Below are positions 4,381 through 61,363 of a DNA stretch of 64,000 bases, piece after piece (position 1 is the first letter of the stretch; every line of letters starts with the position of its first letter). The position numbers and the translations under genes were made by a program. The notes beneath the pieces are model-generated. The model saw only the letters and a list, made by a program, of their open reading frames with translations. It searched no databases and was not told the DNA's origin. Origin of the DNA: Butyrivibrio sp. VCB2006 (GTDB lineage Bacteria > Bacillota > Clostridia > Lachnospirales > Lachnospiraceae); contig NZ_ATVX01000016.1 of NCBI RefSeq assembly GCF_000420945.1, forward strand, positions 1 to 64,000. Direction: 5' to 3'.

Positions 4381-4400
4381 TGCAATACAATCCTCTTGGT

Positions 4401-4412: not shown

Positions 4413-4425
4413 TTATAATATTTTA

Positions 4426-4454: not shown

Positions 4455-4467
4455 GCAGAAGGTACCT

Positions 4468-10337: not shown

Positions 10338-10492
10338 ACGCATCCCTCATCACTTTATTTCCATGCGCCTTATTTGAACAAACTAGTAACTGTATTCATA
10401 ATTGTTTTGTTCTCAAGTATTGAATCAAGAATTCCGCTATCTCGCCTTAGTCAAATTTCTAATTTCTTCAATCTCTAAAGAACGGATTGTCT

Positions 10493-11029: not shown

Positions 11030-11079
11030 TGTTATCCCCTTCCTAATGCCTTTCATTCTCATTCATAAACCAAAGTGCA

Positions 11080-11484: not shown

Positions 11485-11511
11485 TCTCTCTTTCCTCCTA
11501 ACAAATCCCAT

Positions 11512-14048: not shown

Positions 14049-14107
14049 AAAAATTCATTTCCTGATATTCCATCATGAAAATATCTTTTTCTCAAAAACT
14101 AATACAA

Positions 14108-14662: not shown

Positions 14663-14720
14663 ACACAAGTTCCCTCCTAGCTTCACGCATATTCATTTTT
14701 TGCAAATTTCATACACAACC

Positions 14721-14751
14721 ATTATACAGCAGGCATCCCCCAGTTGTACAA
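14721..14751 (-). promoter_or_regulatory. Probable promoter of the ECF operon
   Basis: On the minus strand TATAAT (14726-14721) is perfect. TTGTAC (14751-14746) lies 19 bp upstream, which is longer than ideal. It is placed about 60 bp before the S-component ATG. Confidence 0.5.
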
Positions 14752-14779
14752 CAAAAAGAATGCCTCAGAGCTCGTTATT

Positions 14780-30500: not shown

Positions 30501-33500
30501 CTTCTGCTTCATCAGTTCCTTTGAATATAAAGTCATTTACTGTGTAGTGACTGTCAGAAATCTCTGTAACCACATATCCACTTACTGATTTCTTAGTACC
30601 ATCGTAGTCATATCTTGCGTTATTACCAATAATGGTTACTACTACTGAATCAATAGGTGTTATTGTAATGAAACCGTCAGCTGCCAGTGTGAATGCTACA
30701 GTATAGTTAGGATCCTTGTTGTAGGAGAACTTGGAAATATCAAGTCCCATAACGGTTGTTCCTACTTCTGTCCTTGTTGCCTCAGCAGTGCCGCTATACT
30801 CAATATCGTTTTGAGGGATAAGTCCATTTGAATCAACTGTATATCCTGTTGCACTATGGGACTCACCATCGTATGGAACTGTGGCATGGTTACCAGTAAT
30901 AGTTACTGTAATGGCTGTAGGATTGATGATCAGGCAGCCATCAGTCACTTCATACTCCACATCCTGGAATGTGGTATTTACATGTGTAAAGCTCTCTTTT
31001 GTAAGACCCATGTAGTAAGTATCTGCATTTGTACCACTTGCCTGTGCTGTAACGCCTTCTTTAAGCTTCACATCAGATGCGCTAAATCCGCTTCCTTCTA
31101 CTTCTACTCCGCCAATTGTATATTTTATTGATGTTACATCAAAACCATATACAGAGAATTCTTCTCCGGTATAGGATTTTGTATCTGTTTTACCATTGAT
31201 ATAAACGGTAACCTTAACATTAGGTTTCCATACTGCATACAGGGTATTTGCATCTGAATTACCTGGGTTATTTTCATTGTCAGCCATGATATACGTAGCG
31301 CCAAATCCGATTGTAACTACCTGTGCATCGGCCTGGCTCTTATCAGTATTCCATCCAATAAGCTCATAGCCAAATCTTGTGAAATTAGCCTTAGCCGTTT
31401 CTTCTGACCAAGCTGCAACTGCTTCATTAACGCGAAGTCTGTGATCACCAACATGATCTATTGTAACAGGGCTTCCTGATCCACCATTAGGATCATAGGT
31501 GATTGTTGTGTAAAGATCATCTCCACTAAGTCCTGTAGGATCATATTTAGCTCTAAGAGTTACTTCGCCAAGATTCTCTCCCTTAACAACTATCAGATCA
31601 TCTGTTATTTGGAAGGTACCGTTCGGGAAATATGTTGCTACAGCATTTCCATTCTTATCAAGAAGTTCCCATCCTGCAAATACTTTCTTGGTAGGAGGAG
31701 TTGCAGGTCCTGTTACAACTACTGCTGAATCGCCGGCGTATTCGCTGCTATCAAGGAATGCACTGTCTAATGTTCCCTCGCCGGGATCATATACAACCTT
31801 GACTACGCCAACTCTTCTCCACTTAGCATAGATGTTAACATCTGCTGTTACCTGTCCAAAGTCATAAGGTGTATCGTCTGAAACATTGAACCATCCGATA
31901 ATCTCATAACCGGGACGAGTAAAGTTGTTCATCAGAGCGTTGGAATCAATAATATCACCATACCATGGCTTAAAGTCTGTTGACTGGTTGTTAAGTGGCT
32001 CAGTTTCTGTTCCAAGCTTAGTACTTCTATTCTTATCGCCATCCCAGTTCTCATCCAGGAGTGCTCTGAATCTTTCCTTAACCCATACTACATATACACG
32101 GGTATCATCACTTGCAGGCATTGGTGTACTCCAGTCAACAGGAGTTGTTCCGGCCCTATCTGCAAAGATGTAGCTTCCGTTTACTTCTTTGAGCTTGTAT
32201 CCATCCGGTGCTGAAAGCGCACTTGCCGCTGCAAGGACATCTGCCTGTTTTCCTGAAAGAGGTGCTTCGTAAAGGAGTGTATAATCCCCAACCTTAACCT
32301 CTGCTGATTCAACAGGCTGACCTGTAGCAGAGTCAATGCCTTCTTTTACGTGTACCAGAGAGAACTTGTAGGAGTTACGTTTATGGTAAACATTAGTATT
32401 ACCATATACATAATATGAATCTCCCGGAGCTACTGACTGCATTGAACTGTGAGTTTGATCTGTATATCCGGTTACGGTAAATCCAGTATACTTATTTGTA
32501 AAATTAAATTCCTTCTTATATATTTTTTCAGCAGTGTTAGCTGCAGTAGTAGGATATGTACTACCATCGATATTCTGCTTAAAGTGATAATACTTATAAT
32601 CGCCATCGTTTCCTGAATCACTAAAGTAAGAAACGGCACTGGATCCATCGCTAAGGAACGCATCGAGGAATGTTGTTCTTATTCCTGAGTAGCTTCCCTC
32701 ATGCCATTCTCTTTCTGAAGGCCATGTATATCCATTATCGGAAAGTCTTGACTCATAGAGTCCGCTCATTGTCTGGGTTAAAACATCCCTATTATTCTGC
32801 CTTACATAGAATCTATAAACGATAGTATTTCTATTGTAGTAAACATTTACTACTGTAGTTCCCTTTGCAGCGATAGTCTTACCTGCTGCATCATTACCAC
32901 TATATGTAAATCCAGTATATCTTTGGCTGAGTGTATTACCCAGCATCTGATCAGAGATAGCAGCATCGACATTATAATCAGAAATAACGATACTATCTTC
33001 AAAGTCATAGGTCTTATTTGCTGCGTTTACTCCATCAGTAACCTTCTGCTTCCAGATAATTACTGTAAAGCTTCCTTTACCCTTTTCCCACTTAGCATAA
33101 AGAGTTGTGTCTTCACTAATTGCAGTATTCCAGTAAAATCTCTGTGTTCCTGCTGCATCCTTGTACCAGCCCTTGAATGTATAGCCGCTTCTTGTAGGAG
33201 CTGTAGGCTCAGTTGCCTTATAGCCTGTGGCTGATGTTACATATATTGAAGGAGTATAGGATGCTCCGCCACCTGTTCCGCCATCATTTTCATTAAAGTG
33301 AATCCAGTATGCCTGAACAATTTCAGGTACCAGTTTTCTGTTATTATTATCAATTGCATCAATGGTCTCGCCGTAGTTATATACGTGACCTGCAAGGTTC
33401 TTCCATCCTACAAAGGCTTGTTCAGCCTCTTTTGGATCAACTCTTACATTAAGAGTAACGGAAGCTTCCTGCTCATTAACAGCTGTTGCCTCAAGGACCT

Positions 33501-42936: not shown

Positions 42937-42964
42937 AGGGTGGACAGCAATTACTGTCCACCCT
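42937..42964. terminator. Bidirectional terminator between the lyase and the TIR operon
   Basis: AGGGTGGACAG (42937-42947) pairs perfectly with CTGTCCACCCT (42954-42964). T-rich stretches follow on the plus strand (TTTATTT) and, less so, on the minus strand. It separates the convergent lyase gene and TIR operon. Confidence 0.85.
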
Positions 42965-42984: not shown

Positions 42985-45900
42985 TTATTGTAATCCGTAA
43001 GTCACCTTCAGTTCTTCGCTGATTTCCTGCCCCTTAAGCATGTCTTTTCCCTTCTGAATAAGCTCATCAACAGTGTACTGCTTAAAATACCCCACCTTGG
43101 AAGTGCTATCCACAGTGTGGGTATACACCAGGAAGGAATCCGAATTCTCATGATATCCCAGAGCAGTTAACAGGTATGTGATCATAGTCCAGTTATCCAG
43201 ATCAACAATATTAAGGATTGGTCCCATTTGAACAAATAACTGGTTTCTGCCCTCATTATACTTGAACTCAGCCGTCTTGTAGCCTGAATTGTAGGTAAGC
43301 TCTAATTTACTGATATATTCACCTGTTTCCAAGTTATATCTGTACAGGTATCCGTCTCCGTATACAACCATCAGCTCTTTTACTGCATTTTTTCCCTGAG
43401 GGGTATATATGTTCATACCGTAAACGTCAAGCTCAGGGCAAATAATCTTGGTCAGCTCATTACCCTCAAGGTCCATAACCTGAATAGACTGATCATCTGT
43501 AACTATTAAGCGATTATTGTTAGCATCAATCTCTACACAGCTTGTCTCTCCCCAGTTTGCTGAATGAACAATATCTGTGGTCTTCTTAGTCTTAAGATCT
43601 ATGAGCTGGTCTTTGTCTCTTAGAGCGACATACATCACGTCAAGCTGCTGATTATATTCCCACATATCGACCCTATCTGTGTCATATGTGGTATCTCTGC
43701 CTGTAGCAAGATCTCTTACCTTGAATCCCATACGGGAATAATTTTCGTTAAATTGGTAATAAAGTTTACCGCCGCAGTAAAATGGATCAAGACTTGTTAC
43801 AGAATTGTCCTTATCTATGATCTGCGCTTTTAATTCCAAGGTTCTTGCATCAACTTCAAAGAGTCTTAAAACCTGGTCCTTTTTGTAGGTGATTCTGGCT
43901 ACGCCATCCTCAAAGCCCGCAAGATTATACATGTAATAATCCTCGGCATCTCCCAGCTCTTTTTCTCCAAGGCACTCCTTTGAAGCGGCATCAAAGAAAG
44001 CTATCTTGACAACGGTGCCATCGGGAGATCGTCCAATAACTGCCATCAAATCCCCATCAATCAGATAATCATCTGACAGGATAACCTTGAACTCAGAACT
44101 ATTCGTAAATTCCTTGTAAGCATCATCACGAACTTTGGCCTCGTAAAAAATAATACTGTTACTGTATTCTGTTTTGACAAATGCTCCATGTCCAAACGCA
44201 ATATCCTCAATATCCCGGACAAAGGTAGATGTCATGGCAATGGTATCATCGTCTATTGAGGAAACAGCTCCCATCTTACCACTGACAGTTACAAAGCTTG
44301 GATCCTCGTCGCCCTCTACATAGGCAACACCAACAATAGATTCTCCCACATTATATTCATGCAAGAGCTCGCCAGTATCTTTGTCCCAAATACAAATCAT
44401 ATTTCCTGTACAAAACCATACTGCATTTGACTTAGGAAGATCGTAAAGTCTAGTACCATAGGAAATAGAGTTGTAATCCATTTCTGATGCCCACTTAACT
44501 GTATAGTTATGTGCATCGATGCAGTACAACACTTCATGGCACTTGGTTAGAACATCCATGGAATAGTATCCGTAGCTTCCATAACCCTCAGAGGTATCAA
44601 TAGCTATTATGATGTTGCCATCATCCAAATAAACCACCTTATCCAGGAAGTCATCCTCATCCATCATGCCAAGCTCTACAAGGTCATCATAGGCAGTTGT
44701 GCCTGTCTCCATGTCATAAAAGAAAAGAATCGAATTATTATTACTATCGTTTTTGCCCTTAAAAATAATAGTTTTCTCATCAGGTGATAGCACAAAGCCT
44801 GAAAAAGATGCGCTTTCGTAATAAGGATCTGCAGGAGTAGAAACGTATTTTCTTATAGTTGAGCCATCCTCAGGATCAAGCTTATATAATCCATTACAGT
44901 AGGTGCCGATCAAAACGGAGCCATCCTTCATAACTACCGGCTTTTCAGTGATGTTGTAGAATAATTCATCACCTTCGGCAAGACTTTCTCTTTCCCATTT
45001 AATCGTTCCATTCAATACGTCTACGGCCTGCATATATTCGCTGCTGCAGATAAGAAGCACATCCGGTGCAATGTATCCATAGTACTTAACTTCCTTGTCT
45101 ACAGAACTATACTCATACAAAAGCTCATGGGTCTCACGATTCCACACCTTAAGATTCTTGGATCTGTCCAATGCCGTAAATGAGCAACCGTCCTTGTCAA
45201 TTTCATAATTATGAACAGTATCCGGCATGGTGTAATTCCAGGTAGCAGTAATATTTCCGCCGGTTTCAACTTTGTAGGCCATGGTGGCATTACTTATAGC
45301 ACTCACCGCCTCCGGAACTACTGGTCTGTCAGGGTTATCTTCGCTAGGCAAAGCCGCAAGAGCCAGTTGCAAGGCGTCAATTCTCTTATCGTCAGATAGA
45401 TACTGACTGGAAGCATTAGCCAGATACTTAGACTGACTGATAAGTGACTGTCTGTAATTTTCATTAATCCTTGCATTGCTGTAGAGCATGTATGCGCCAA
45501 AGCCCACAGCAAGGGCCATAGCTCCTGAAAAGATCGCAGTAAGTCTTTTCATCTTGTACTGACGCTGTCTGTTCATAAGTTCATTATAGGAACAGCCAAT
45601 AAGTGTTGCCGCAAGTCTTGGGAGCTCTACACTCTTTGCTTCTCTTCTTGGAAGACGGTAGTCACAGGAAAGGGGCTCAACCGGTGTAAGTACCGTTTCA
45701 AGTTCGCCCTTTTCATTGTATTTCTGTTCTTCCCTGTTCTGCAGTATCTGCGGAATAACATCGTGGGGCTCACCATCTACAAGAACTGTAAGTACATTTT
45801 CCTGTGGATGGTTTTGTAAAAAGAGCTTTATCTCTCTTTCAACCCATGTTGACAGGTGAGTATTAGTGGAACACAAAACGATCAGATAATCTGAGTTGTA

Positions 45901-46110
45901 AAGTGCTTCCTCTATAGTATTACTAAGGTCACTGGTGATAGGAAGCTCGTCCTTATCCCTGAATATCCTCTCAATCTTTTTAAAGCCTGTCTTTTTCTGA
46001 ATTTTCCCCGGGATATGATAGTGCTCAAGATCCCACTCAATTGCAGCCGCTACTTTATTGTCCAGCTCTGCATGTTTGTACGAAATAAATGCATTATAAT
46101 GTAAACCCAT
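42985..46110 (-). CDS. TIR-domain transmembrane protein with extracytoplasmic beta-propeller (paralogue B)
   Basis: This is a 1041-residue protein. The N-terminal TIR domain (about 1-150) has box 1 'YNAFISYKHAE', and 'STNTHLSTWVEREI' carries Glu93 at the position of the catalytic Glu in NAD-cleaving TIRs. One membrane span lies at about 190-210 ('AIFSGAMALAVGFGAYMLY') after the basic stop-transfer 'KMKR', so TIR is predicted inside and the C-terminal 800 residues outside. These consist of WD40/PQQ-like blades ('NLKVWNRETHELLYEY', 'GLYKLDPEDGSTI', 'MICIWDKDTGELLHEY'), enough for about two propellers. It is last in the J/Hsp70/TIR/TIR operon. NADase signalling on ligand binding is inference. 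Confidence 0.88.
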   Translation of the reverse strand: MGLHYNAFISYKHAELDNKVAAAIEWDLEHYHIPGKIQKKTGFKKIERIFRDKDELPITSDLSNTIEEALYNSDYLIVLCSTNTHLSTWVEREIKLFLQNHPQENVLTVLVDGEPHDVIPQILQNREEQKYNEKGELETVLTPVEPLSCDYRLPRREAKSVELPRLAATLIGCSYNELMNRQRQYKMKRLTAIFSGAMALAVGFGAYMLYSNARINENYRQSLISQSKYLANASSQYLSDDKRIDALQLALAALPSEDNPDRPVVPEAVSAISNATMAYKVETGGNITATWNYTMPDTVHNYEIDKDGCSFTALDRSKNLKVWNRETHELLYEYSSVDKEVKYYGYIAPDVLLICSSEYMQAVDVLNGTIKWERESLAEGDELFYNITEKPVVMKDGSVLIGTYCNGLYKLDPEDGSTIRKYVSTPADPYYESASFSGFVLSPDEKTIIFKGKNDSNNNSILFFYDMETGTTAYDDLVELGMMDEDDFLDKVVYLDDGNIIIAIDTSEGYGSYGYYSMDVLTKCHEVLYCIDAHNYTVKWASEMDYNSISYGTRLYDLPKSNAVWFCTGNMICIWDKDTGELLHEYNVGESIVGVAYVEGDEDPSFVTVSGKMGAVSSIDDDTIAMTSTFVRDIEDIAFGHGAFVKTEYSNSIIFYEAKVRDDAYKEFTNSSEFKVILSDDYLIDGDLMAVIGRSPDGTVVKIAFFDAASKECLGEKELGDAEDYYMYNLAGFEDGVARITYKKDQVLRLFEVDARTLELKAQIIDKDNSVTSLDPFYCGGKLYYQFNENYSRMGFKVRDLATGRDTTYDTDRVDMWEYNQQLDVMYVALRDKDQLIDLKTKKTTDIVHSANWGETSCVEIDANNNRLIVTDDQSIQVMDLEGNELTKIICPELDVYGMNIYTPQGKNAVKELMVVYGDGYLYRYNLETGEYISKLELTYNSGYKTAEFKYNEGRNQLFVQMGPILNIVDLDNWTMITYLLTALGYHENSDSFLVYTHTVDSTSKVGYFKQYTVDELIQKGKDMLKGQEISEELKVTYGLQ

Positions 46111-46130
46111 TTTCCCTATAATCCTTCTAA

Positions 46131-49100
46131 TTACCCAATTCCGTAATAATTCTTTAAATCTTCACTCATCTCTGAGCCCTTCAGCATGTCTTTTGCCCTC
46201 TGAATCAGTTCATCTACAGTGTACTGGTTAAAGTAGCCGATAAAACTATCCGTAGACTCCTTGTCTCTTGAAAAACATATGAAGGAATCTGTTGCGTCGT
46301 GATAGCCAAAGCAGGTTGTCAAATATGTAATCTCGAACCAGTCATCAATATCTACAATATTCAGAATGGCTCCCATATTAACAAACAGGTGTCTCTTTTC
46401 CATATCAAAAGAAAACTCTGCATTCTTGTACACTGAGCTGTAGGTAAGCTCACACTGTCCTATATATTCGCCGGTTTCCGCATTATATCTGTAAAGATAC
46501 CCATCAGAATAAACTACCAAAAGCTCTTTTACCGCATCCTTGGTATCAGGAGTGTAAATGGTCATTCCAAACACATCTACATTAGGAGTAGAGATGCTGT
46601 AAAGTTCCTCTGCCGCCATGTTGTAAACCACAACTTCCTGGTTATCGGTGGTAAGTATCTTGTCATTTTCAGCATCAAGAACAACTTTGGTTGTGCCCTG
46701 ATAATTTGCAGAATGAAGAACTTCAGTAACTTCACCGGTTGTGGCATTAACAATCTGATCATATTTACCGGTCTGATAAATAATCTCTTTTTCCGGGCAA
46801 TAAATAGTCTGCGGACTTCCACTGCCGTATTCCTGCTCAATACCCCACTGCTTGAGATCATGGCCTTTTTCTATGTCATAAATAACCACAGATTTATGGA
46901 CATAATCCCCATAGTTAAAGTAAATAAGCTTGCCATCCTTGTAGTCAGGAACTATTCCTGATGATGAGGAAAAATCTTCTTGAAGCACCCTTTCCTCAAC
47001 CTCGAGGCTATCGATATCAGCAATCAAAAGCTTTAAAGTTCTGTCCTTATCGCAGGTGACATATATTTTCCCATTATCAATTGCAATAAGGTCGTAGTAA
47101 TACTTGGTGCCCTCTCCAAGTTGAATCCGACCTACATATTTTTTCTCTGAAGCATCAAAGAGATCGATGTAAGTATTCTCATCATCGTCATCCATGTAGG
47201 TTAAATAGTCTCCTGACAAGTTGCCATATGAAGCAACAATAGATTTTATTTCAGGAGAATCTGAAAATTTGGTAAAGTTCTCGTCATATACACTTGTAGC
47301 ATAGAAAACGATCTTATGGCTGGTTCTTGCCCAGGTATACACGCCCTGCCAAACCTTGACCTTCTCGATATTATCCGCAAAATAATCCATGACGCTAATG
47401 CTGTCACTGCCTTCTGAATTGTCGGGAGTAGCCATTCCACCCATATTGGTATAAAGAGTTGGATAACCTCTGTCTTTTTTCTGGGTAGCGGCAATAATAC
47501 TGTCGTTAACGTTATATTCATTACGTAGCTCACCTGTAGCAAGATCCCAGACATTAAACTTATTTCCGGAGAAGAAACCAACTGCCTTTTCTGCGATAAT
47601 ATCTACAAATTTAGAATCATAGCTTATGGCATTCATGGCAAAATCCTGCTGCCATCTTAGAGTCAGGTCCTCATTAAAGCAGTAAATGCTCTTGTGAGAA
47701 GTAGATAAAACGTTCATATTAAGGAAGCCGTAGTTACCATAGCCATCATCTACGTCGATAGCCAACATAACAGAGCCGTCTTCCAGAATCCTGAAGGTAC
47801 GGATATCATCATCTTCCTCCATGTAGCCCTGGGCTACAAGATCCACTTCAGATTCCACGCCGGTCTCCAAATCAATAACCCTGATGATGGTATCGTGATA
47901 GCCTTCTGTGGCAGCTCCAAGAATCACCTTCTTTTGATCATCGGAAAGCTCAAAGCCGTAAAAAGAACCGCTTTCACTATATTCGTCACCAGCCTTGGTA
48001 GTATATTTCTTAATAATTGATCCATCGTTTACATCCAGCTTATAAAGCCCTTTTGACGAAGTTGACACAAGAACGCTTCCGTCATCCATGACCTGTGGCT
48101 CACCTGAAATAGATGTACTCTCGAACCTCTCGTACTCCCATTTAACACTGCCATCATAAACATCCACAGCTCTTAATGTGAAAGAACTCAGCATCAAAAG
48201 AGTGTCTTTATCTATGTAGGCTATATTATCAATATCATCCTCCGGATTAGCGTAGGAAAACACTTCTTCGTGGGTGTCAACATCCCAAACCTTTACATTG
48301 TGGAGTCTGTCTCTGGCAGCAAGAGTACTTCCATCATAATCTACGATATAATTCTCTATAGTATCAGGCATGGTATAATCCCAGACCGCAGTAATATTGG
48401 AACTGGTCTTAGCAACATAGGCAAGGGAAGCTTTACTTACAGCACTTACAGCCTCCGGAATAACTGGTCTATCCGGTTCTTTTTCACTTGGAAGTGCCGC
48501 CAGTGCCAGGTGAAGCGCATCAATTCGCTGCTCATTATCAAGAAGTCTGTCGGATTCATTGGACAGGAACTTACTCTGATTGATAAGTGACTGCCTGTAG
48601 TTTTCGTTTATACGGGCGTTGCTGTAAAACATGTATGCGCCGAAACCGACAGCCAAAGCCATAGCACCTGAAAAGATTGCAGTAAGTCTTTTCATCTTGT
48701 ACTGACGCTGTCTGTTCATGAGTTCGTTGTAAGAACAGCCGATAAGTGTTGCTGCAAGTCTTGGAAGTTCTACGCTCTTAGCCTCTCTCCTTGAAAGACG
48801 ATAGTCACAGGACAAAGGCTCCACAGGCTCAAAGACTGTAACAGACTCTCCCTTATCATTTTGTCTTACCACTTCTCTGTTCTGGAGCATCTCCGGGATA
48901 ACATCATGGGGCTCTCCATCCACCAGTACTGTGAGAACATTTTCCTGTGGATGATTCTGTAAAAAGAGCTTAATCTCCCTCTCAACCCAGGTAGAAAGAT
49001 GTGTGTTGGTAGAGCACAAAACTATCAGGTAATCAGAGTTAAAGAGTGCCTCCTCTATGGTACCGCTAAGGTCGCTTGTGATGGGAAGCTCATCCTTATC

Positions 49101-49253
49101 TCTGAAGATTCGCTCAATCTTCTTGTAACCCGTCTTTTTTTGAATCTTTTTGGGGATATGATAATGCTCAAGATCCCACTCAATCGCAGCAGCAACCTTA
49201 TTATCAAGTTCTGCATGCTTGTACGAAATAAATGCGTTGTAATGTATTGCCAT
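46131..49253 (-). CDS. TIR-domain transmembrane protein with extracytoplasmic beta-propeller (paralogue A)
   Basis: This 1040-residue paralogue shares the architecture of the gene downstream: TIR (about 1-150, Glu93 in 'WVEREI'), span at about 190-210, extracytoplasmic propeller. Within the first 120 residues the two differ at only six positions. Their propellers are clearly more diverged ('NVKVWDVDTHEEVFSY' versus 'NLKVWNRETHELLYEY'). This fits duplication followed by change of the sensor while the output is conserved. The gap to the Hsp70 gene is 31 bp and to the second TIR gene 20 bp, so they share a transcript. Ligand and output are unknown. Confidence 0.88.
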   Translation of the reverse strand: MAIHYNAFISYKHAELDNKVAAAIEWDLEHYHIPKKIQKKTGYKKIERIFRDKDELPITSDLSGTIEEALFNSDYLIVLCSTNTHLSTWVEREIKLFLQNHPQENVLTVLVDGEPHDVIPEMLQNREVVRQNDKGESVTVFEPVEPLSCDYRLSRREAKSVELPRLAATLIGCSYNELMNRQRQYKMKRLTAIFSGAMALAVGFGAYMFYSNARINENYRQSLINQSKFLSNESDRLLDNEQRIDALHLALAALPSEKEPDRPVIPEAVSAVSKASLAYVAKTSSNITAVWDYTMPDTIENYIVDYDGSTLAARDRLHNVKVWDVDTHEEVFSYANPEDDIDNIAYIDKDTLLMLSSFTLRAVDVYDGSVKWEYERFESTSISGEPQVMDDGSVLVSTSSKGLYKLDVNDGSIIKKYTTKAGDEYSESGSFYGFELSDDQKKVILGAATEGYHDTIIRVIDLETGVESEVDLVAQGYMEEDDDIRTFRILEDGSVMLAIDVDDGYGNYGFLNMNVLSTSHKSIYCFNEDLTLRWQQDFAMNAISYDSKFVDIIAEKAVGFFSGNKFNVWDLATGELRNEYNVNDSIIAATQKKDRGYPTLYTNMGGMATPDNSEGSDSISVMDYFADNIEKVKVWQGVYTWARTSHKIVFYATSVYDENFTKFSDSPEIKSIVASYGNLSGDYLTYMDDDDENTYIDLFDASEKKYVGRIQLGEGTKYYYDLIAIDNGKIYVTCDKDRTLKLLIADIDSLEVEERVLQEDFSSSSGIVPDYKDGKLIYFNYGDYVHKSVVIYDIEKGHDLKQWGIEQEYGSGSPQTIYCPEKEIIYQTGKYDQIVNATTGEVTEVLHSANYQGTTKVVLDAENDKILTTDNQEVVVYNMAAEELYSISTPNVDVFGMTIYTPDTKDAVKELLVVYSDGYLYRYNAETGEYIGQCELTYSSVYKNAEFSFDMEKRHLFVNMGAILNIVDIDDWFEITYLTTCFGYHDATDSFICFSRDKESTDSFIGYFNQYTVDELIQRAKDMLKGSEMSEDLKNYYGIG

Positions 49254-49284
49254 TTCTTAAATCCTCAAATCTGTAAAGCTAGCT

Positions 49285-51045
49285 TTAATCAGCCTTATCT
49301 TCCTCGTCGTCCTCCTCGCAGTCTCCGTCAAGTTCGCTTTCGATGTACTGTTTCCATAAATTCTCTGTCTCAGTTTCAAAACTGAACATACTCTGCTCAA
49401 TTCTCTCAAGTTTAAGTGAGAACATCATTGCAGCCTTCTTGCAGTCAATGATTGAAGCACTATCAAGGAAATTGTTAAAGCCTTCAATTTCATTTCTAAG
49501 GACTTCTCTCTGATACTGATTGCCTTCTTCATAGAGTCTTGCGGATTTCTCAAGCAGGTACTTGATCTCAGGAATTTCTCTTGGATCCTTTTTAAGCTCA
49601 TCCATCCTAAGCTTAATATCGATAAGCTTGTCCTGATCAATTCCCTCCTGAGCACCTCTGCTTCTGTGAACCTCGGTGTTATTGGCAGGGCAATAAATAT
49701 CAATATCAAAAATACCGTTAAGATCATAGGAGAATCTCACGTCCGCATAGACCTCTCCCTTTGGTCTTGGAGGAACGTCAAACTCGATGGTATCCAGTTT
49801 CAAATTATTGGATGCCTTGAGCTTTTCTCCCTGATAGATGTTAAACTGGAGCTTTTTCTGCATATTGGTAGCAGTATAGTATCTACCCATCTTACTTGCA
49901 GGAAGTATCTGGTTCTTGGGAATAATAACAGACATCTTATCTCCTATTACGTCAATTCCAAGGGAGAATGGACAGATATCCGTCATAACTATGTCTTTTA
50001 CGTCATCTTTTCTAAGAGCAATTCCTGTGACAATACCCGCTCCGCGGCAGATAGATACATCTCCGTTTGGATCAACTTTAATCTTGCCCGGGAAAAGAGA
50101 TTCCATATAAGCCCTTACGCTTGGCATCTTGGAAGATCCACCAACCATGATTACACCTGCGATATCCTCAGGAGAAAGACAGGCATCATTCATAAGCCTC
50201 TTAAGGACGATGGTAAGTCTTCTAAAGATAGATGCTGATATATCAATGAATCTCTGCTGATCAAGTTCATACTCATATTCCTGACCCTGAGCATTTATCA
50301 TTGTCTTGGTCTTATCATCGCTTGAAAGCCTTATCTTAATGCTTTCGCCGCAGTTTATAAGAACCGCCTTATTCTTCTTATCAAGCTTCTCCCAGTCGAT
50401 ACCAAATTTGCTGCAGATATCAAGGGCTATTGCTTCGTTAAAGTCTTTTCCGCCAAGAGCGTTATCACCTGAAATATTGCAGATCTCAACCATATTGGCA
50501 AAGGCATCAACTACAGTAACATCCAGTGTTCCGCCGCCAAAGTCGAAGACAATGAACTTCTCGTCCTGATCCATATGTTCAAAGTGATAAGAAAGAGCTG
50601 CTGCTGACGGCTCATTTATAAGCTGTGTAACCTTAACTCCCGCTCTTACTCCGGCAAGTCTCGTTGCCTCTCTTTGATGGTCATCAAAGTAAGCAGGCAC
50701 ACTAATTACGGCAGAGTCCACTTTTTCTCCCAAAAACTTTTCTGCATCAGCAATAAGCTTTTTCAGAACGATTGCAGAAAGATCAATAGGAGTATAGGAG
50801 CCTGCTCTTCCCAGGTCGAACTTCACGTTCCTTCCCATCTGTCTCTTGAATTCACATACTGTCTGGTCCGGATTTGTGATAAGCCTTTCTTTGGCTGTCT
50901 TACCCACGATCACCTCTCCATTGTCAAAAGATACAACGGAGGGTGTAAGATATTCCCCAAATTCATTAGGAATAAGAACTATTCCCTCATCTGTCCAGGC
51001 ACTCACCAAAGAGTTGGTGGTACCCAGATCAATTCCCACTATCAT
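49285..51045 (-). CDS. HscC-like Hsp70 chaperone
   Basis: This is a 586-residue Hsp70 chaperone. The ATPase domain (about 1-360) has 'GIDLGTTNS', 'INEPSAAALSYHF', 'VFDFGGGTLDVTVVD' and 'GVIMVGGSSKMP'. The substrate-binding domain follows ('CPFSLGIDVIGDKMSVIIPKNQ', 'QFNIYQGE'), but the lid is short and the tail is acidic without the DnaK 'EEVD/K' ending. Total length is close to E. coli HscC rather than DnaK (about 610-640). A J-domain partner is encoded directly upstream (66 bp gap), but no grpE is present. As a specialised chaperone it may act on the TIR receptors of the same operon. Confidence 0.9.
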   Translation of the reverse strand: MIVGIDLGTTNSLVSAWTDEGIVLIPNEFGEYLTPSVVSFDNGEVIVGKTAKERLITNPDQTVCEFKRQMGRNVKFDLGRAGSYTPIDLSAIVLKKLIADAEKFLGEKVDSAVISVPAYFDDHQREATRLAGVRAGVKVTQLINEPSAAALSYHFEHMDQDEKFIVFDFGGGTLDVTVVDAFANMVEICNISGDNALGGKDFNEAIALDICSKFGIDWEKLDKKNKAVLINCGESIKIRLSSDDKTKTMINAQGQEYEYELDQQRFIDISASIFRRLTIVLKRLMNDACLSPEDIAGVIMVGGSSKMPSVRAYMESLFPGKIKVDPNGDVSICRGAGIVTGIALRKDDVKDIVMTDICPFSLGIDVIGDKMSVIIPKNQILPASKMGRYYTATNMQKKLQFNIYQGEKLKASNNLKLDTIEFDVPPRPKGEVYADVRFSYDLNGIFDIDIYCPANNTEVHRSRGAQEGIDQDKLIDIKLRMDELKKDPREIPEIKYLLEKSARLYEEGNQYQREVLRNEIEGFNNFLDSASIIDCKKAAMMFSLKLERIEQSMFSFETETENLWKQYIESELDGDCEEDDEEDKAD

Positions 51046-51111
51046 TTTTCTTTACTCTCTCCCAATTACATATATTTTATGCGTACTGTTACGCTTCTAT
51101 TTGGTCGTCAC

Positions 51112-53283
51112 TCACGCACATTTTGATGTGAGTTCCTTGTACTTGGCCATAATTGTATTTATGCACTCCGCATTTATCCTTGGATCTACTGACTTATTTT
51201 TACCAAAGACATGATTTTTGCCATCACTTGTGGTGATCACTATATTTTTTTTGCCATCCTGTATTCTGGTTGTAATGGACTCTATTTCACTTACAGGAAT
51301 TATCTCGAGCATCCAGTAATTGACAGATACAAAGTATTTACCGGTAACATAGATTCCATAAACCCTGTCATAGTAGGATGGATAATGCTTAATCTGTATT
51401 CCTACGTCAATCAGTCTTTCTGATGAGTATCTTCTAAAGCTCCAGATAGGAATAAGGCTTACCATTCCTACCAGAATCAGTAATGATGAGAAACACAGAT
51501 ATTTGTAATAAAACATGTCATATCCGCCAACGTATTTTCCCATGGTAATGTCAATCGCAAAGAATACGTTAACCGTTACTGCTAATGGTATAACAAGTGC
51601 CATCATCTGATAGGTATCCCTCATATTCCTATCAAGAAGGAATGGGCTAAGTAATGGCCTAAACTTTTTCTTTTTAAGCTTTTCGTATTTCCTGTTAAGG
51701 GCATCGGAAAATGCCTGATTTTTCCTGCGTTCCAATCTCTGTAAGATGAGATGATTGACTGCCTTGGCAGGTTCAAAGTGTCTGACATACAGGGTCTTAT
51801 TAGTTCCCATGGTAGTAACAATTTTAATAAAAGCCGGGCGATTAAAGTCTCCCGAATCATAAAGATTATAACTGCTGATCTTCTCTATATTCTGCACAGA
51901 ATATGTTGAGCTATTACACCAGACAATGAATCTACTGAATATGAAGACCTGAGATCCACGCACATAATAAGCTTCTCCGCTCTTAATATCGCTGGCAATT
52001 TCTGCTATTACCGGGATTAACTGCACTAAACTTACAGTTCCGGCCACAACACGAACTATGAAAACCATAAACATCACGATCGGCAACCAGCAGATAAACA
52101 TGCCTGAAATAGATAAGAGTCTTACCAATATTTCTACCGCACTGTCACTGACGGATAAGCTTATGGCTAACAGAGTACACATAACACCGATAATTATCCA
52201 GGAAGCCACGAATGAGAAAACAAGTACCTTTAGTTCACTGAAGTATGCGTTAAATACCTTTCTAAGGCTCTTTAATGGATATATAAAGTCCTCTGTATTA
52301 AGCTTCTCATCACTAAGGATTCTGCATCCATATCTTGCAAGGTTTCCCAATAGGTACTGATAGCCCTGATGAGTGGAGGATACTTTCAGAATGACCTTTT
52401 TATTGCTGTCAGTTATAGTAAGATCATCTGTCTTTTTATCAACCTTACAGGTTAAGTCCTCGATAAAGTAATAGCACGTTTTCTTGCCTGTAAATAACAG
52501 AACATTTTTTACCGGATACACTGTTGTCTTTAAATGCTTTTTGAACATTCCCTCGGGAAGAACGTATCCAAAGGGAATCGAATAAGTATCCGCATCGGCA
52601 TATCCAAGGAAAAAGCTAAGGATTTGCTTGTTATCAGCCTTTTTTCTTTTTATTTTGATATTTGCAATATCAACCTGGGTAGCCAGGAATCTTGAACGAA
52701 GTTCTGTGTATTCCTGGCTAGTTCTATCTCCAAACAGTACACTATCAATGATTTTGACTGATTCTTTTGAAAGACTACTCGTAGCCCCCAGAACATCAAG
52801 GAAATGCTCTATAAATTCAGGGGTTATTTCCTCTTTGTACGGAGACTTTGCCCATCCTCCAAACAGTGTTTCAATTATATTTCTGTTCCCGTAGATTTCC
52901 GGCTTTGTGGCAACAATAGCCATCATATCCCTTGAAAAAGCAAGCATTCTCTTCTGCCTTTGGGAAAGCCTGGAATTATCGGAAATCTTGCTAAAATCAA
53001 GAGCATCTTCTCTTCGGTCTTCGCCATTTTTCAGGGCATTACTGAAGTCAAGATTATCCTCATCAGGATCGTCATACTCATCCCAGGTCTGTCTGTATGA
53101 ATTTGCTCTTGTAACTCCCTGCGCATATCTTACAGCCATTTTGTAGCTGTCACGAAGCTTTTTAAAATCCTCCGGATGCTCCGCCGGATGATATTTCTTG
53201 GCCGCTTCGGCATATGCTCTTTTTATCTCATCTATATCACTGGTTGGTTCTATTCCAAGCCAGTCCCAACTACTTTTATTCAT
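51112..53283 (-). CDS. Membrane-anchored J-domain protein
   Basis: This is a 723-residue protein and the first gene of the TIR operon. Residues about 1-60 are a J domain, 'SSWDWLGIEPTSDIDEIKRAYAEAAKKYHPAEHPEDFKKLRDSYKMA'-like in pattern. The invariant HPD loop reads HPA, so the Asp needed to trigger Hsp70 ATPase is replaced. Two pairs of membrane spans (about 345-440 and 570-620) separate segments resembling bacterial PH-like domains ('YVRGSQVFIFSRFIVWCN', 'YDRVYGIYVTGKYFVSVNYW'). There is no Gly/Phe or zinc region, so it is a type III J protein like DjlB/DjlC, partners of HscC. It would place the Hsp70 at the membrane. Confidence 0.82.
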   Translation of the reverse strand: MNKSSWDWLGIEPTSDIDEIKRAYAEAAKKYHPAEHPEDFKKLRDSYKMAVRYAQGVTRANSYRQTWDEYDDPDEDNLDFSNALKNGEDRREDALDFSKISDNSRLSQRQKRMLAFSRDMMAIVATKPEIYGNRNIIETLFGGWAKSPYKEEITPEFIEHFLDVLGATSSLSKESVKIIDSVLFGDRTSQEYTELRSRFLATQVDIANIKIKRKKADNKQILSFFLGYADADTYSIPFGYVLPEGMFKKHLKTTVYPVKNVLLFTGKKTCYYFIEDLTCKVDKKTDDLTITDSNKKVILKVSSTHQGYQYLLGNLARYGCRILSDEKLNTEDFIYPLKSLRKVFNAYFSELKVLVFSFVASWIIIGVMCTLLAISLSVSDSAVEILVRLLSISGMFICWLPIVMFMVFIVRVVAGTVSLVQLIPVIAEIASDIKSGEAYYVRGSQVFIFSRFIVWCNSSTYSVQNIEKISSYNLYDSGDFNRPAFIKIVTTMGTNKTLYVRHFEPAKAVNHLILQRLERRKNQAFSDALNRKYEKLKKKKFRPLLSPFLLDRNMRDTYQMMALVIPLAVTVNVFFAIDITMGKYVGGYDMFYYKYLCFSSLLILVGMVSLIPIWSFRRYSSERLIDVGIQIKHYPSYYDRVYGIYVTGKYFVSVNYWMLEIIPVSEIESITTRIQDGKKNIVITTSDGKNHVFGKNKSVDPRINAECINTIMAKYKELTSKCA

Positions 53284-53397
53284 CTATTCACCACAGATAT
53301 CAGTTATACACTCGTTCTGATAGTCTGTATTCCTCCAAGAATACATACAATTTCTTCTTATTAGATGCTGCAAAAAATTTCTATCACAAACTCGATA

Positions 53398-53426
53398 ATT
53401 ATACTAATTTCCAACCGCCTATGCAA
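53398..53426 (-). promoter_or_regulatory. Promoter of the J-protein/Hsp70/TIR operon
   Basis: On the minus strand TTGCAT (53426-53421) and TATAAT (53403-53398) are exactly 17 bp apart. The predicted leader to the J-protein start is about 110 nt. On the plus strand a second TATAAT (53464-53469) may serve the divergent propeller gene, but without a good -35. The remaining intergenic sequence shows no repeat. Confidence 0.75.
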
Positions 53427-53502
53427 TCACAAGATATAGTCACTCCAAAAACGAAAAAAGTAATATAATACTTTAGAGCAAAAGAACTATTTTGAAAAAC
53501 AG

Positions 53503-55116
53503 ATGGAAAAAAATATGAGAAATAACACAAACAAACTAAGCACCAAGCAAATAATCTCAATGACCGTTTCTACAGTAATTATCCTTGTAGGAGTTGCATT
53601 CCTCCTGGTATTCCTGGAAGAGAATTTTAAGGATCCTAAGGATATAGACATTACAAATCAGAAATCTCCTGGCATTAAAGTCGTTGAGCATTCCAAAAAA
53701 ATGGGTGGAACTGCAGATATAGATTATTCTGAGCTGGATTTAACGATAGCTGTCGTTGATCAGGTTGTATATTGCAGTGATGGTCGTATATATGACAACT
53801 TTACAAAGCTTGATAAATCAGATTTTAGCTGTATTTATAACAGCAATTCTACAGCCGCTATCATTTCAGATGACAACAGGAGCTATTATATTGATGCTAA
53901 TCTGATTCCGGTGATTATAAGTGATGATATTCATTATGGAGGATGCCGGTTTTCTCCAGATGGAGAGAAGATTCTTTTTGAAAGCAGTTCAGAAAAAAAG
54001 TTTGTTTTATTTTATCCTAACCGCGAAGCATACTATGATATTGAACTCGATGAAAAGCTTGACTACAATACTTTGGTAAACCACACTGTCTTATCTCCTG
54101 ACTTTGAAACCATTGCCTTTTCTACAAAAAGAGGCACCACAGTCTTCAATTTCGAGACCGGTACAATACTGTATACCAAAGAGAGCTATAAACCCCTTGC
54201 TATATCTGATGAGGGCAAGAAGGGGTTCTTTGAACTATATGATAAAAAAGAACTCTATTATTACCATGATGAACAGATGGACCGTATTAGTGATATAAAT
54301 GTAAGTGAGCATTATGTTATAAACCACGATTGTACCGAGATTCTATTCTATTACTGGAATGAAGATGCTATATGGTATTTTAATAGCGGAATGGAACAGG
54401 CCAAAAAAATTTTGGACCACAAGCCTGATAGAATGTTTATAGCAAATTACGGAGAACTATTTACCACCAATTACTTTAAAAGATACTTGGACATAGATAG
54501 CTTTTTCCCTTTATTTATCCGGGCATATGAGGATGATTTTTACTATTTTTCTGACCTTCAATCAGAGCCGGTTGTTGTTGGCTATTCTGAAATTAAAGAT
54601 AAGGATTATGTAGTAAATGTGACCGATAAAGGCGTTGATATTATCTACGTCTACGAAGGTGCCTGCTTTGGAAGAAGTGATGTAAAAGATGATCTCTACA
54701 ATCTTCATATAAACAAGGATGGTTATGATAAAAAACTAATTAACGAAGGCGAAAAGGAATATATTGCCGAATATGCTGTAACACAGGATTATTCAAATAT
54801 CTATGTTAGGTCAATTACTCTTAATGATCACAAAGCTCTGATCCGTAAATATGGAAACGATAAGTGCACTGACCTTGTAAGCGCCGATGATTACAGAGAT
54901 ATTAATTTTACATACTGTCCTACCACCGGAAAACTTTACTATTGTATGGATGGTACTCTTTATTCTATTTCTGAGAGCGATAATGAGATCATCCCAGAAT
55001 GTGTTAACGCCAAGGAAATATCTGCATTTTATAATTATGACTCGTTTCCTTGCTTTAAAGGCAAAGATGGAAATAAGTATACATATATCTACGGAAATGT
55101 TGTAAGAATAGAGTAA
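53503..55116 (+). CDS. Membrane-anchored beta-propeller-like protein
   Basis: This is a 537-residue protein divergent from the J/Hsp70/TIR operon. The basic N-terminus is followed by one span (about 18-39, 'ISMTVSTVIILVGVAFLLVFL'), then a long extracytoplasmic part. That part consists of repeated short strands resembling propeller blades ('FSPDGEKILFESSSEKKFVLFYPNREAYYDIEL'-type, 'LYYYHDEQMDRISDI', 'GKLYYCMDGTLYSIS'). No TIR or enzymatic motif is present. The shared promoter region and similar ectodomain style link it to the TIR proteins, perhaps as a co-receptor or decoy; this is inference. Confidence 0.75.
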   Translation: MEKNMRNNTNKLSTKQIISMTVSTVIILVGVAFLLVFLEENFKDPKDIDITNQKSPGIKVVEHSKKMGGTADIDYSELDLTIAVVDQVVYCSDGRIYDNFTKLDKSDFSCIYNSNSTAAIISDDNRSYYIDANLIPVIISDDIHYGGCRFSPDGEKILFESSSEKKFVLFYPNREAYYDIELDEKLDYNTLVNHTVLSPDFETIAFSTKRGTTVFNFETGTILYTKESYKPLAISDEGKKGFFELYDKKELYYYHDEQMDRISDINVSEHYVINHDCTEILFYYWNEDAIWYFNSGMEQAKKILDHKPDRMFIANYGELFTTNYFKRYLDIDSFFPLFIRAYEDDFYYFSDLQSEPVVVGYSEIKDKDYVVNVTDKGVDIIYVYEGACFGRSDVKDDLYNLHINKDGYDKKLINEGEKEYIAEYAVTQDYSNIYVRSITLNDHKALIRKYGNDKCTDLVSADDYRDINFTYCPTTGKLYYCMDGTLYSISESDNEIIPECVNAKEISAFYNYDSFPCFKGKDGNKYTYIYGNVVRIE

Positions 55117-58300: not shown

Positions 58301-61246
58301 TTACTGCTGTGCTGTCTCAGCTGCTGCCTCTTTTTCTCTGTTCTTCTTGAAGTTCTTGCAGAATACAGCCATAAGGCAAACCATAAGTGCGCCGAATACA
58401 ACATCAAGTACGATCATGAGAATCTTCCATGAAGCCATACCTTCCTTGAGATTCTCAGGTGCATATGCACGGCTGTTAACTACAGTGTAGAGAATGTTCT
58501 TGGTAGCCTCACGCATAGCCTGCTGAGCTCCGTTTGTATCTCTGAACTGAACATTGTTTGTAGCTGTTGGATAGTTAACAAGCATACAGTCTGTACCATT
58601 TCTGATAGCCTGGTCAGATGACATGTAGCCATATACTCCGAAGTAGTCAGTAAGAACGAAGCCATTGAAGCCCCACTCATCTCTGAGTACTGTCTTAAGA
58701 AGTTCCTTACATCCACCTGCCCAACGGTTACCAATGTAGTTGAAGGAAGACATAACTGCTGTCATCTCAACATTCTTAACTGAGATTTCGAAAGGCTTTA
58801 AGTAGATTTCACGAGCTGCCTGCTCATTAGTCCATGTGCAGAGCATGTCGCATCTGTTGCCTTCCTGGTCGTTGAATGCAAAGTGCTTAACGTAAGCATA
58901 TACTCCGTTTGCCCATGAGCCCTTAGTAGCCTCAGAAGCAATCTTACCTGAGAGAACACCATCCTCTGAGTAGTACTCAAAGTTACGTCCTGCAAAGGCT
59001 GTTCTGTGAATGTTCATAGCTGGTGCATACCAACCAGATACATCCATCTCGTTAGCCATCTTACCGATGTAATCACCGAATGAATAAGCGAGATCCTTGT
59101 TGAATGTAGCTGCAATTGTAACACCTACAGGGAATCCAAGTGATCCAACGCCTGTGAAGTTATTGTTGATAGAAGCAGGGCCGTCACAGTCATTTGTACG
59201 AACCTTACCGATTGACTCAACTGAGTTTGTCTGGTATCCGCCAAGAGAAATAAGAGCGTTCATATCATCAAGTGACATGCTGTTAAGAAGCTCATCCCAC
59301 TTAGCATCATCCTTAGCTACGCCACGAAGGTCCTTAAGTGTAAGGCTTGTTGTAGCGCCTGTTGTAACTGCTGCTGCGTTTGGATCCTCGTCAGCTGCTG
59401 TAGCCTCTGGTGTGAGGTAGTTGCTGATGTTATAGAAAGTAGCCTTAGCATCTGCAGGCATATTGTAATCTGTAGGAGCTGCTGTAGCCTTGGCATAATT
59501 AGCATAGCCATCTGCTCTTGAAAGATATTCAAGACCACCATTTGCAAAATCAAATGTGTTTGTAGCTGTAATCTTGTCGCTCTCTCTCTTGTTTGTTCCG
59601 TCATAAGTAACAGTTGTTCCAACTGAGTATGTTCTGGAATCGATCACATTGTGAGAATCCTTGTTGATAGAGATCTCATAATCACCTGCATCAAGAACAT
59701 ATGCCTTAGCATTCTGGTAATCATAAGAAGCCATATCTTCTGCTGCAAAAGAGATAGTGATTGTCTCAGAAGCTCCAGGCTCAAGCATTGAAGTCTTGGC
59801 AAATTCTACAAGGTTTGCAGAAGCCTTCTCAATTCCGCCATTCTCATAAGGAGGATTGTAGTAAACCTCTACAACGTCCTTACCTGCAACTGAACCTGTA
59901 TTTGTTACAGTAACATCAAAGGAAATTGTTCCGTTTGACTCTGTAATATCACCCATTGTCTGTTCAAAGGATGTGTATGAAAGTCCATATCCAAATGGAT
60001 ACTGAACAATGCTGTCATAATCAATGAGACCTTCAACTGCTGCTGTCTCATAGAACTTATAGCCAACATAGATGCCTTCAACATAGTTGATAAAGCTTAC
60101 TTCTGCCTTGGTCTCAACACCTGTGAATCCTGTTGAAACATAGGCAAAATCTTCCATGTTTGTGTAGTTGAAGTCACCAAAGTTGTTCCACCATGGTGTT
60201 TCCTTCATGTTGTAAACATAAGTATCGATAGTTCTGCCTGACGGGTTAACTTCGCCGGTAACAATCTCTCCAAGAGCCTTCATACCAACGTGTCCCATAC
60301 CTGCTGCCCAGAGAACTGACTTGATCTGAGGATGATCCTTGATAAATCCAAGCTCAAAAGCATTAGCTCCGTTATATACAAGGATAACCTTGTCGAAGTT
60401 AGCGCATACAAGGTCGATCATCTCTTCCTCTCTGTTTGTAAGCTGAAGATAGTGATCACCTGCATCCCAGTCGTTACCCTCGTTGAGAGTATCGTCATAA
60501 GTTCCTGCTGTATATGTAGTTCCATCCTTGAATGAACCATCAACAACAGCTGTCATGTTAGCTGGAAGGTCAGCACCCTCACCGCCTGAACGGCTGATAA
60601 CGATCATAGCTGTATCTGAGTAGCTCTTTGCATTAGATATAAGCGAATCTGTGTAAAGAGATACATTTGGTTCAGGAAGTGTCCAATCCTGATTCCACAT
60701 TCCAACTACAGGTCTGTCAGCCTTGTAGTCTGTATAGAACTTAGTAAGTTCTTCATTAGTCTCAATTCCTGCACTCTTAAGTGAAGCAAGAAGATCAATA
60801 GTGTCATAAGCATCGTTAAGAGCACCTGAACCAGCGCCACCAAGGATAGGATTTGTTGAAGCCCATCCAAAAACATTAAGTTTGCTTCCAGAAGCTACTG
60901 GAAGAGTATTAGAATCATTTTCAAGAAGTACGATGCCTTCTCTTGCAATATCCTGAGCAAGAACAGTTGTCTCATCAGAAGTCTGCTTGCTGATGGTTCC
61001 CTTTCCGCTTACAAGATCAAGCATTGTGCTCATAGGTCCTGTCAGGATCATATTCACACATACAACAATACCAGTAAGCATAGCAACAAGTGCTGTGCCT
61101 CTTACAAGCTTCTTAGTTGACTTCTTGAGTTTCATAACTGCGATCATGATAACGATAGCAACCGCAATTATCACACCAATAGCAATCAAATAAGACTTGA
61201 TTGAATTGAGGACGTTGATGACGTCCGCCATGTTGATAGATAACAT
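58301..61246 (-). CDS. Membrane-anchored glycoside hydrolase family 3 with swapped domain order
   Basis: This is a 981-residue protein. A span at about 15-40 and a second hydrophobic stretch near 55-75 begin it. The GH3 C domain comes first ('EGIVLLENDSNTLPV', with 'SGGEGADLP' holding the likely acid/base Glu) and is followed by a fibronectin-like domain. The GH3 N barrel comes last ('NAPAMNIHR'-type region, 'GRNFEYYSEDG', nucleophile Asp in 'VLTDYFG'). This reversed order is known from Butyrivibrio and Ruminococcus beta-glucosidases. A final span lies just before the tail 'NREKEAAAETAQQ'. AAGGGAGG fixes the ATG at 61246. It would act at the cell surface. Confidence 0.9.
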   Translation of the reverse strand: MLSINMADVINVLNSIKSYLIAIGVIIAVAIVIMIAVMKLKKSTKKLVRGTALVAMLTGIVVCVNMILTGPMSTMLDLVSGKGTISKQTSDETTVLAQDIAREGIVLLENDSNTLPVASGSKLNVFGWASTNPILGGAGSGALNDAYDTIDLLASLKSAGIETNEELTKFYTDYKADRPVVGMWNQDWTLPEPNVSLYTDSLISNAKSYSDTAMIVISRSGGEGADLPANMTAVVDGSFKDGTTYTAGTYDDTLNEGNDWDAGDHYLQLTNREEEMIDLVCANFDKVILVYNGANAFELGFIKDHPQIKSVLWAAGMGHVGMKALGEIVTGEVNPSGRTIDTYVYNMKETPWWNNFGDFNYTNMEDFAYVSTGFTGVETKAEVSFINYVEGIYVGYKFYETAAVEGLIDYDSIVQYPFGYGLSYTSFEQTMGDITESNGTISFDVTVTNTGSVAGKDVVEVYYNPPYENGGIEKASANLVEFAKTSMLEPGASETITISFAAEDMASYDYQNAKAYVLDAGDYEISINKDSHNVIDSRTYSVGTTVTYDGTNKRESDKITATNTFDFANGGLEYLSRADGYANYAKATAAPTDYNMPADAKATFYNISNYLTPEATAADEDPNAAAVTTGATTSLTLKDLRGVAKDDAKWDELLNSMSLDDMNALISLGGYQTNSVESIGKVRTNDCDGPASINNNFTGVGSLGFPVGVTIAATFNKDLAYSFGDYIGKMANEMDVSGWYAPAMNIHRTAFAGRNFEYYSEDGVLSGKIASEATKGSWANGVYAYVKHFAFNDQEGNRCDMLCTWTNEQAAREIYLKPFEISVKNVEMTAVMSSFNYIGNRWAGGCKELLKTVLRDEWGFNGFVLTDYFGVYGYMSSDQAIRNGTDCMLVNYPTATNNVQFRDTNGAQQAMREATKNILYTVVNSRAYAPENLKEGMASWKILMIVLDVVFGALMVCLMAVFCKNFKKNREKEAAAETAQQ

Positions 61247-61363
61247 AGATTGAACCTCCCTTTTCATAATAGGTAGTGGACTGGTCAGGACCAAAACCCG
61301 TGTTTGACTGCCGCATGACACACTCGCAGCAGCGCTTACAGTAAGAGATTAACACGCAAAAAT

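Follow-up and report, generated by a model that had tools for sequence, protein, structure and literature searches.

An HscC-type Hsp70 and a membrane J protein, both altered at the HPD contact, in a gene row with two predicted TIR-propeller proteins of Butyrivibrio sp. VCB2006

The window, that is the whole stretch of DNA analysed, comprises 64,000 nucleotides of Butyrivibrio sp. VCB2006 (contig NZ_ATVX01000016.1, positions 1–64,000). On its minus strand a gene for a membrane J protein is followed by genes for an HscC-type Hsp70 and for two proteins with TIR domains, TIR2 and TIR1, separated by gaps of 66, 31 and 20 base pairs; a fifth gene diverges from the row. A first-pass annotation had described the four genes as one row closed by a single terminator. 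All five reading frames were open at the coordinates it gave, the gaps were as described, and the terminator was found as a strong, bidirectional hairpin. The features are as follows.

51112–53283, minus strand: membrane J-domain protein of the DjlB/DjlC type, 723 amino acids (open reading frame, Pfam DnaJ, hydropathy with four segments)
53182–53190, minus strand: HPA motif, residues 32–34 of the J protein, HPD in canonical J proteins (sequence, alignment)
49285–51045, minus strand: HscC-type Hsp70, 586 amino acids (open reading frame, Pfam HSP70, tree)
50623–50625, minus strand: codon of HscC Gln141, aligned to E. coli DnaK Arg167 (alignment)
50029–50031, minus strand: codon of HscC Val339, aligned to E. 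coli DnaK Gln378 (alignment)
46131–49253, minus strand: TIR-membrane-propeller protein 2 (TIR2), 1040 amino acids, Glu93 codon at 48975–48977 (open reading frame, Pfam)
42985–46110, minus strand: TIR-membrane-propeller protein 1 (TIR1), 1041 amino acids, Glu93 codon at 45832–45834 (open reading frame, Pfam)
42937–42964, minus strand: terminator hairpin closing the four-gene row (12-pair stem and T run)
53398–53426, minus strand: possible promoter of the row, TTGCAT-17-TATAAT (read by eye; not listed by the consensus scan)
53503–55116, plus strand: divergent membrane-anchored protein, 537 amino acids, with a propeller from a sub-cut-off PD40 match alone (judged outside the unit)

The promoter proposed for the row fared less well than its terminator. 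Both hexamers are readable at 53426–53398, but the first matches the consensus at three of six positions and the site is missing from the consensus scan. Because that scan returned 20 promoter-like sites against a mean of 29 in shuffles, i.e. fewer than in shuffled sequence, promoter matches carry little weight here. The four genes are presumably co-transcribed.

The J protein matches Pfam DnaJ at 31.3 bits (cut-off 27.8) and is predicted from hydropathy to have four membrane segments; in its AlphaFold model the mean predicted local distance difference test score (pLDDT) is 45, with J-domain residues 1–60 at 63–91 and the remainder poor. The product of the adjoining gene matches Pfam HSP70 at 375 bits and is 36% identical to E. 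coli HscC, with which it groups in the tree, apart from DnaK and HscA (support 100/100, long branches flagged). The earlier identification of a membrane J protein paired with an HscC-like Hsp70 is borne out by these data. A scan of genome contigs with HscC gave one distant locus, which was not used further.

The HPD motif is regarded as essential to J proteins. The window protein reads HPA instead, a point that had escaped the first-pass annotation, and it also lacks the HPE of the DjlB/DjlC type. (Published work is cited by PubMed Central (PMC) number.) HPE is given in a 2026 review as the sole replacement of HPD that seems tolerated, and is carried by E. coli DjlB and DjlC (PMC13254874), whose sequences, checked here, read HPE. 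In the canonical pair, bonds run from Asp35 of DnaJ to the DnaK residues Arg167 and Gln378 (PMC8215388). A gap-free local alignment with DnaK places Gln141 of the window HscC at Arg167 and Val339 at Gln378, and the DnaK of the same genome retains both contact residues. Eight J-like matches are found in this genome, four of them above the Pfam cut-off. Two are of the DjlC type, namely the window protein with HPA and a second one, on another contig, with HPT; the other six (two above and four below the cut-off) all carry HPD.

The states of both partners were surveyed over 96 rows of HscC, made up of 94 genes from 93 loci (one locus with two) to which the window and E. coli were added; the loci cover 62 of the 73 non-own family matches, all 18 class matches outside the family, and 13 loci of the genus, and some of the sampled contigs end near the HscC gene. 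Eight rows without an adjacent J gene and one with a misaligned motif (L249) were dropped, leaving 87 HscC genes. Arg167 is accompanied by an acid in the partner's motif in 71 of these and by a non-acid in three; a residue other than Arg goes with an acid in two, and 11 have neither (Fisher's exact test, p = 9e-10, a value that ignores kinship and is not readable as a probability). These 11 rows, the window among them, form one clade with support 100/100 in a tree of 48 rows (chosen for an HP motif, for lack of a J gene or for lack of Arg), and all 11 have Gln or Leu at 167 and Val or Ala at 378, with partners that read HPA, HPT or HPV. His-Pro is kept in 14 of the 14 J partners of the clade, and their helix II is closely alike. 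When the three-row sister group is included, the contact is broken on one side or both in 14 of 14 rows, and parsimony by eye suggests that each side changed at least twice within this 14-row clade.

Over the whole survey the partners of HscC yielded 90 motif entries, since some HscCs have two J genes (E. coli's two included) and one J gene between two HscCs was counted twice. There are 40 NPE, 27 HPE, eight HPA, three HPT, three SPE, two HPV and two RPD, and one each of HPQ, HPS, RPE, HPD and NPV. The commonest motif is thus one in which His is lost too, mostly together with Ser at the site of DnaK residue 170, which in DnaK is an Asn that we take to lie in the J-binding site. HscC residue 170 and the His or Asn of the motif combine as Asn170 with His in 36 cases, Ser170 with Asn in 35, Asn170 with Asn in six, Ser170 with His in four, and otherwise in six; for this His/Asn label column 170 ranks tenth by the symmetric measure described below and 90th of 550 by share explained.

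Comparable paired changes are known from laboratory suppressors. DnaK R167H and DnaJ D35N compensate each other (PMC5519331, PMC7289447), as do R167A and D35N, and D35A with a normal Hsp70 fails in simulations (PMC13012618). The pair in the window looks like a natural version of such suppressor pairs, with change at the same two sites, and differs from them in combining HPA, HPT or HPV with Gln or Leu and in having lost Gln378 as well. Its nearest known relative is the DjlB/DjlC–HscC system of E. coli, which likewise has neighbouring genes, membrane J proteins with a short HPxxxPxxFxxLRxAY J domain lacking HPD, and an Hsp70 of the same group. E. coli, however, combines HPE with retained Arg167 and Gln378, where the window has HPA with Gln and Val; its djlC and hscC face each other, whereas the window genes lie on one strand; and DjlB and DjlC have a tail anchor in place of the four membrane segments of the window protein. 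Because it lacks HPE, the window pair is a variant of the DjlC–HscC family, and not a canonical J–Hsp70 pair.

On balance, we favour the view that a natural J–Hsp70 pair has here dispensed with the Asp of HPD together with Arg167 and Gln378, giving an insulated second circuit, and that HscC partners have nearly left HPD behind while the Hsp70 surface changed alongside. The J domain would still dock through helix II and His-Pro; with the bonds from Asp to Arg167 and Gln378 gone on both partners, the pair would trigger ATP hydrolysis through a changed interface, apart from the DnaK/DnaJ of the cell. As far as can be inferred it works like the DjlC–HscC pair. We think that it works because His-Pro and helix II are kept, because laboratory changes at both sites compensate, and because HscC is under strong constraint: between the window and genome G209 of the same genus the numbers of nonsynonymous (dN) and synonymous (dS) substitutions per site are 0.131 and 1.55.

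Several observations weigh against this view. The sister rows combine Cys167 with HPE, Arg167 with HPQ and Arg167 with HPS, so that the loss on both sides may represent one or two events. Outside the clade, L263 has Asn167 with HPD and L274 has Arg167 with NPV. Gln378 is absent from all 14 rows without an acid, but also from 29 of the 73 with one, and is less telling. Among all 550 well-filled HscC columns, column 167 ranks third, after 203 and 484, when scored by symmetric mutual information against whether J residue 35 is an acid; by the share of the label explained, a measure that favours variable columns, it ranks 43rd and column 378 48th, and kinship lifts many columns. This mixed ranking speaks for a specific link between residue 167 and the acid, without proving it. 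The J gene is under far weaker constraint than HscC (dN 0.466, dS saturated, between the window and G209). A paired loss confined to one lineage is, in our view, a strong lead and not proof.

A further point on the same side is that Glu directly follows the motif (HPAE and similar) in 13 of the 14 J partners of the clade. This Glu might simply replace the Asp, displaced by one position, with Gln141 as its new partner. We find this doubtful, since the second J protein of L092 reads HPAV and Glu is common at this position even where residue 35 is an acid (e.g. HPEEYP). A more radical alternative is that these are degenerate, Pam16-like pseudo-J domains, whose role would be to anchor or inhibit and no longer to stimulate HscC. 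J proteins without HPD are presumed to be non-functional (PMC13254874), no system tested retained stimulation once the His or Asp of HPD was exchanged for Gln or Asn (PMC8215388), and the six HPD proteins of the genome could in principle serve HscC. Against this, E. coli HscC is stimulated by DjlC, with its HPE, and not by DnaJ, CbpA or HscB (PMC8215388); moreover, the contact residues of HscC have changed too, His-Pro and helix II persist in the partners, and the second J protein of this type in the genome departs from HPD as well. We therefore regard pseudo-J domains as unlikely and retain the altered but working interface.

The open-licence PMC literature, as far as it was covered, yielded no report of HPA, HPT, HPV or NPE partners of HscC, or of a change at Arg167. 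The 2026 review leaves undecided whether deviations from HPD are accidents or have been selected (PMC13254874). In the present case the deviation is paired, in that both sides of the contact have changed in a conserved gene pair of a cell with canonical HPD proteins. The question of accident or selection would thereby become open to an ATPase assay, and the pair may represent an orthogonal Hsp70 circuit.

The first-pass annotation had gone further and proposed a single surveillance system, in which J–HscC would keep both TIR receptors inactive at the membrane until stress or phage infection triggers their release; co-occurrence across genomes had been set beforehand as its test. The outcome is mostly against the proposal. 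In a genus sample of 79 genomes, close HscC (expectation value, E, up to 1e-120) is present in 11, one with two copies, and the surroundings of all 12 genes were inspected. A J gene adjoins 12 of the 12; a TIR gene does so in three of the 11 genomes, namely the window, G209 and G220. Of the 79 genomes, 52 (40/61 + 12/18) contain TIR-propeller relatives at E up to 1e-5; 43 of these 52 have no close HscC and three have the TIR gene beside it. Counted per genome, TIR-propeller genes of any kind show no association with HscC (9/11 vs 43/68, p = 0.31). The nearest TIR class (E <1e-90, our own cut, with genome lists compiled by hand) is associated with it (8/11 vs 18/68, p = 0.0046; with G190, whose HscC is more distant, set aside, 8/10 vs 18/69, p = 0.0016; both values ignore kinship).

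Beyond the genus, HscC is found in 64 of 299 genomes of the wider family (E up to 1e-88; nearly one genome per genus) and in 21 of 391 of the class (E up to 1e-100). Since the J gene is adjacent in 88 of the 96 rows, while a TIR gene of the window's family lies within three genes of HscC in just three, J–HscC is a free-standing two-gene unit, found alone in many Clostridia; its other neighbours vary by locus and by eye look unrelated. We note that a gene of a PilZ-type family follows J–HscC in three genomes of the genus (L093, L094, L123; the Pfam match was shown for the L094 copy), and that in G028 (L181, 5783–10461) a gene that by eye looks MoxR-like directly precedes the HscC–J pair.

The flanks indicate how the row could have arisen. 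In the window and in G209 the row is flanked by the same sigma-factor, GtrA and glycosidase genes; in G220 the flank with the sigma factor corresponds, and the contig stops 445 bases upstream of the J gene. G163 has two TIR genes after the glycosidase and GtrA genes, without the J–HscC block that in the window stands between the two sets, and in G173 TIR genes lie near the same GtrA and glycosidase. In a TIR tree made by a quick method, with Shimodaira–Hasegawa-like approximate likelihood ratio support alone, TIR1 of the window joins the G209 and G220 genes (100); TIR2 branches next (99), followed by the G163 genes within a set of support 89. Most simply, J–HscC would have come to lie upstream of a TIR gene already present in the common ancestor of the three species, TIR2 being an old duplicate.

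Every compared gene of the region has a dS of 0.87 or more between the window and G209. Between G209 and G220, dS is 1.06–2.23 for three nearby genes, and 0.06 for J (dN 0.019) and 0.05 for HscC (dN 0.005). Nucleotide identity is mostly 94–100% (82% in one gapped window) over a tract that begins near the J start and extends to roughly TIR codon 80 (L089, about 10380–14789; L122, about 446–4800); three other genes of these genomes are 88–93% identical. This suggests a recent exchange of the J–HscC block. It may instead reflect an assembly mix-up, as the tract lies at a contig end in G220.

Some of these data do fit a system that keeps TIR receptors inactive. The genes are closely spaced on one strand in the window, G209 and G220, the divergence of the window from G209 implies that their order has lasted, and the nearest TIR class shares genomes with HscC beyond expectation when kinship is left out of account. 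In E. coli, HscC is thought to act at the membrane (PMC8215388) and DnaJ is required for phage sensing by bNACHT25 (PMC12169576). Yet 43 of the 52 genus genomes with a TIR-propeller gene have no close HscC, and in 93 of the 96 rows no TIR gene lies within three genes of HscC; the three cases seem to go back to a single ancestral arrangement, and those of G209 and G220 are not independent, their J–HscC blocks being nearly identical. PADLOC matches to the row proteins are weak; of ten flanking proteins two had a match, and by eye we take these for an endonuclease III and a Clp-type ATPase, neither of them a defence gene. A general surveillance operon is rejected, the modules being separate across genomes. 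Control of the TIR proteins by the chaperone in this particular row is possible but not supported by the comparison, and we think it improbable.

The row looks like a seldom-seen combination of two modules. We lean towards two modules on one transcript, an altered-interface J–HscC pair and a TIR receptor pair. The first would be a membrane J protein with a private Hsp70, of the DjlC/HscC kind, for membrane-proximal proteins, inserted ahead of a TIR gene that the ancestor of the three species already had. The second would be a pair of receptors, each with a propeller outside, one membrane helix and a TIR enzyme inside that is probably activated by ligand-driven clustering and consumes or converts nicotinamide adenine dinucleotide (NAD). 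Less favourable to this account are the derivation of the insertion order from a reading of synteny and that of the propeller from Pfam matches.

TIR1 and TIR2 both match the Pfam models TIR_2 and ThsB_TIR above cut-off. The propeller model PQQ_2 scores 38 in TIR2, against a cut-off of 27.6, and 25.8, just below it, in TIR1; each protein has one membrane segment by hydropathy (about 190–209), marginal at 1.62 against a cut-off of 1.6. The earlier description of receptor-like TIR proteins is supported, with an intact putative active site; the propeller is above cut-off in TIR2 only, and the membrane segment is marginal. A basic stretch precedes this segment, which predicts that TIR lies inside and the propeller outside. 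The AlphaFold model of TIR1 (mean pLDDT 42) is too poor to use, and a search of PDB by sequence gave no useful relatives of the TIR domain.

All 58 aligned rows (55 distinct genes, three counted twice) have Phe50, Arg51, Cys80 and Glu93, and Arg48, Asp52 and Trp89 are kept in 57. Glu93, located where the first-pass annotation had put it, is by analogy presumably the catalytic glutamate of TIR enzymes. The TIR domains could instead be scaffolds, in proteins that are ordinary envelope sensors; by eye, no obvious effector gene stands beside the TIR genes. The conserved residues, however, resemble an enzyme pocket, and we find it hard to favour scaffolds over putative NAD-processing enzymes.

The ThsB_TIR match recalls Thoeris ThsB and TIR NADases, but the PADLOC match to ThsB is weak (E = 0.001) and limited to one of the two proteins, and both are predicted to carry a membrane anchor and a propeller on the outside. 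A PADLOC scan of 15 window proteins, with the immediate neighbours among them, gave no match to ThsA, and membership of Thoeris is rejected for want of this partner among the scanned neighbours. The GAP1-N2 GTPase conflict systems, with HSP70, GrpE and DnaJ fusions, likewise place Hsp70 and J genes near predicted immune genes, partly in Firmicutes (PMC7159879); the five window proteins, by contrast, gave no GTPase, tubulin or GrpE match, and J–HscC mostly stands alone.

The TIR domain (1–188) is 90–94% identical between TIR1 and TIR2 and among TIR1, G209 and G220; the propeller halves are 42–58% identical. In ten close pairs amino acids change faster in the outside part, with dN/dS of 0.08–0.36 there, 0–0.08 for residues 1–125 and 0–0.11 for residues 126–188. 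Positive selection on the propeller is not supported over the whole outside part, where dN/dS is <0.4 in all ten. In two of them (L169/L036 and L054/L163) silent sites are much more similar in the outside part than in the TIR part; G209 and G220 show the reverse. This points to shuffling of TIR and propeller halves.

Of 46 short loci, 13 (L036–L039, L043, L045, L047, L048, L059, L159–L161, L169) have a gene for a DHH/DHHA1 phosphoesterase next to the TIR-propeller gene, in some of them on the same strand with almost no gap. The phosphoesterase could remove a nucleotide made by the TIR enzyme.

The divergent propeller gene had also been associated with the operon, an association that is not upheld. 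It has no match in G209 or G220 and none elsewhere beside a close HscC, and it does not seem to belong to the unit. Matches occur in nine of the 79 genus genomes, its own included, all weak bar itself; the own genome holds a second, weak copy on another contig. Two large open frames lie elsewhere in the window, one of 1006 amino acids without a PADLOC match at 58301–61321 and one of 2464 amino acids at 27577–34971.

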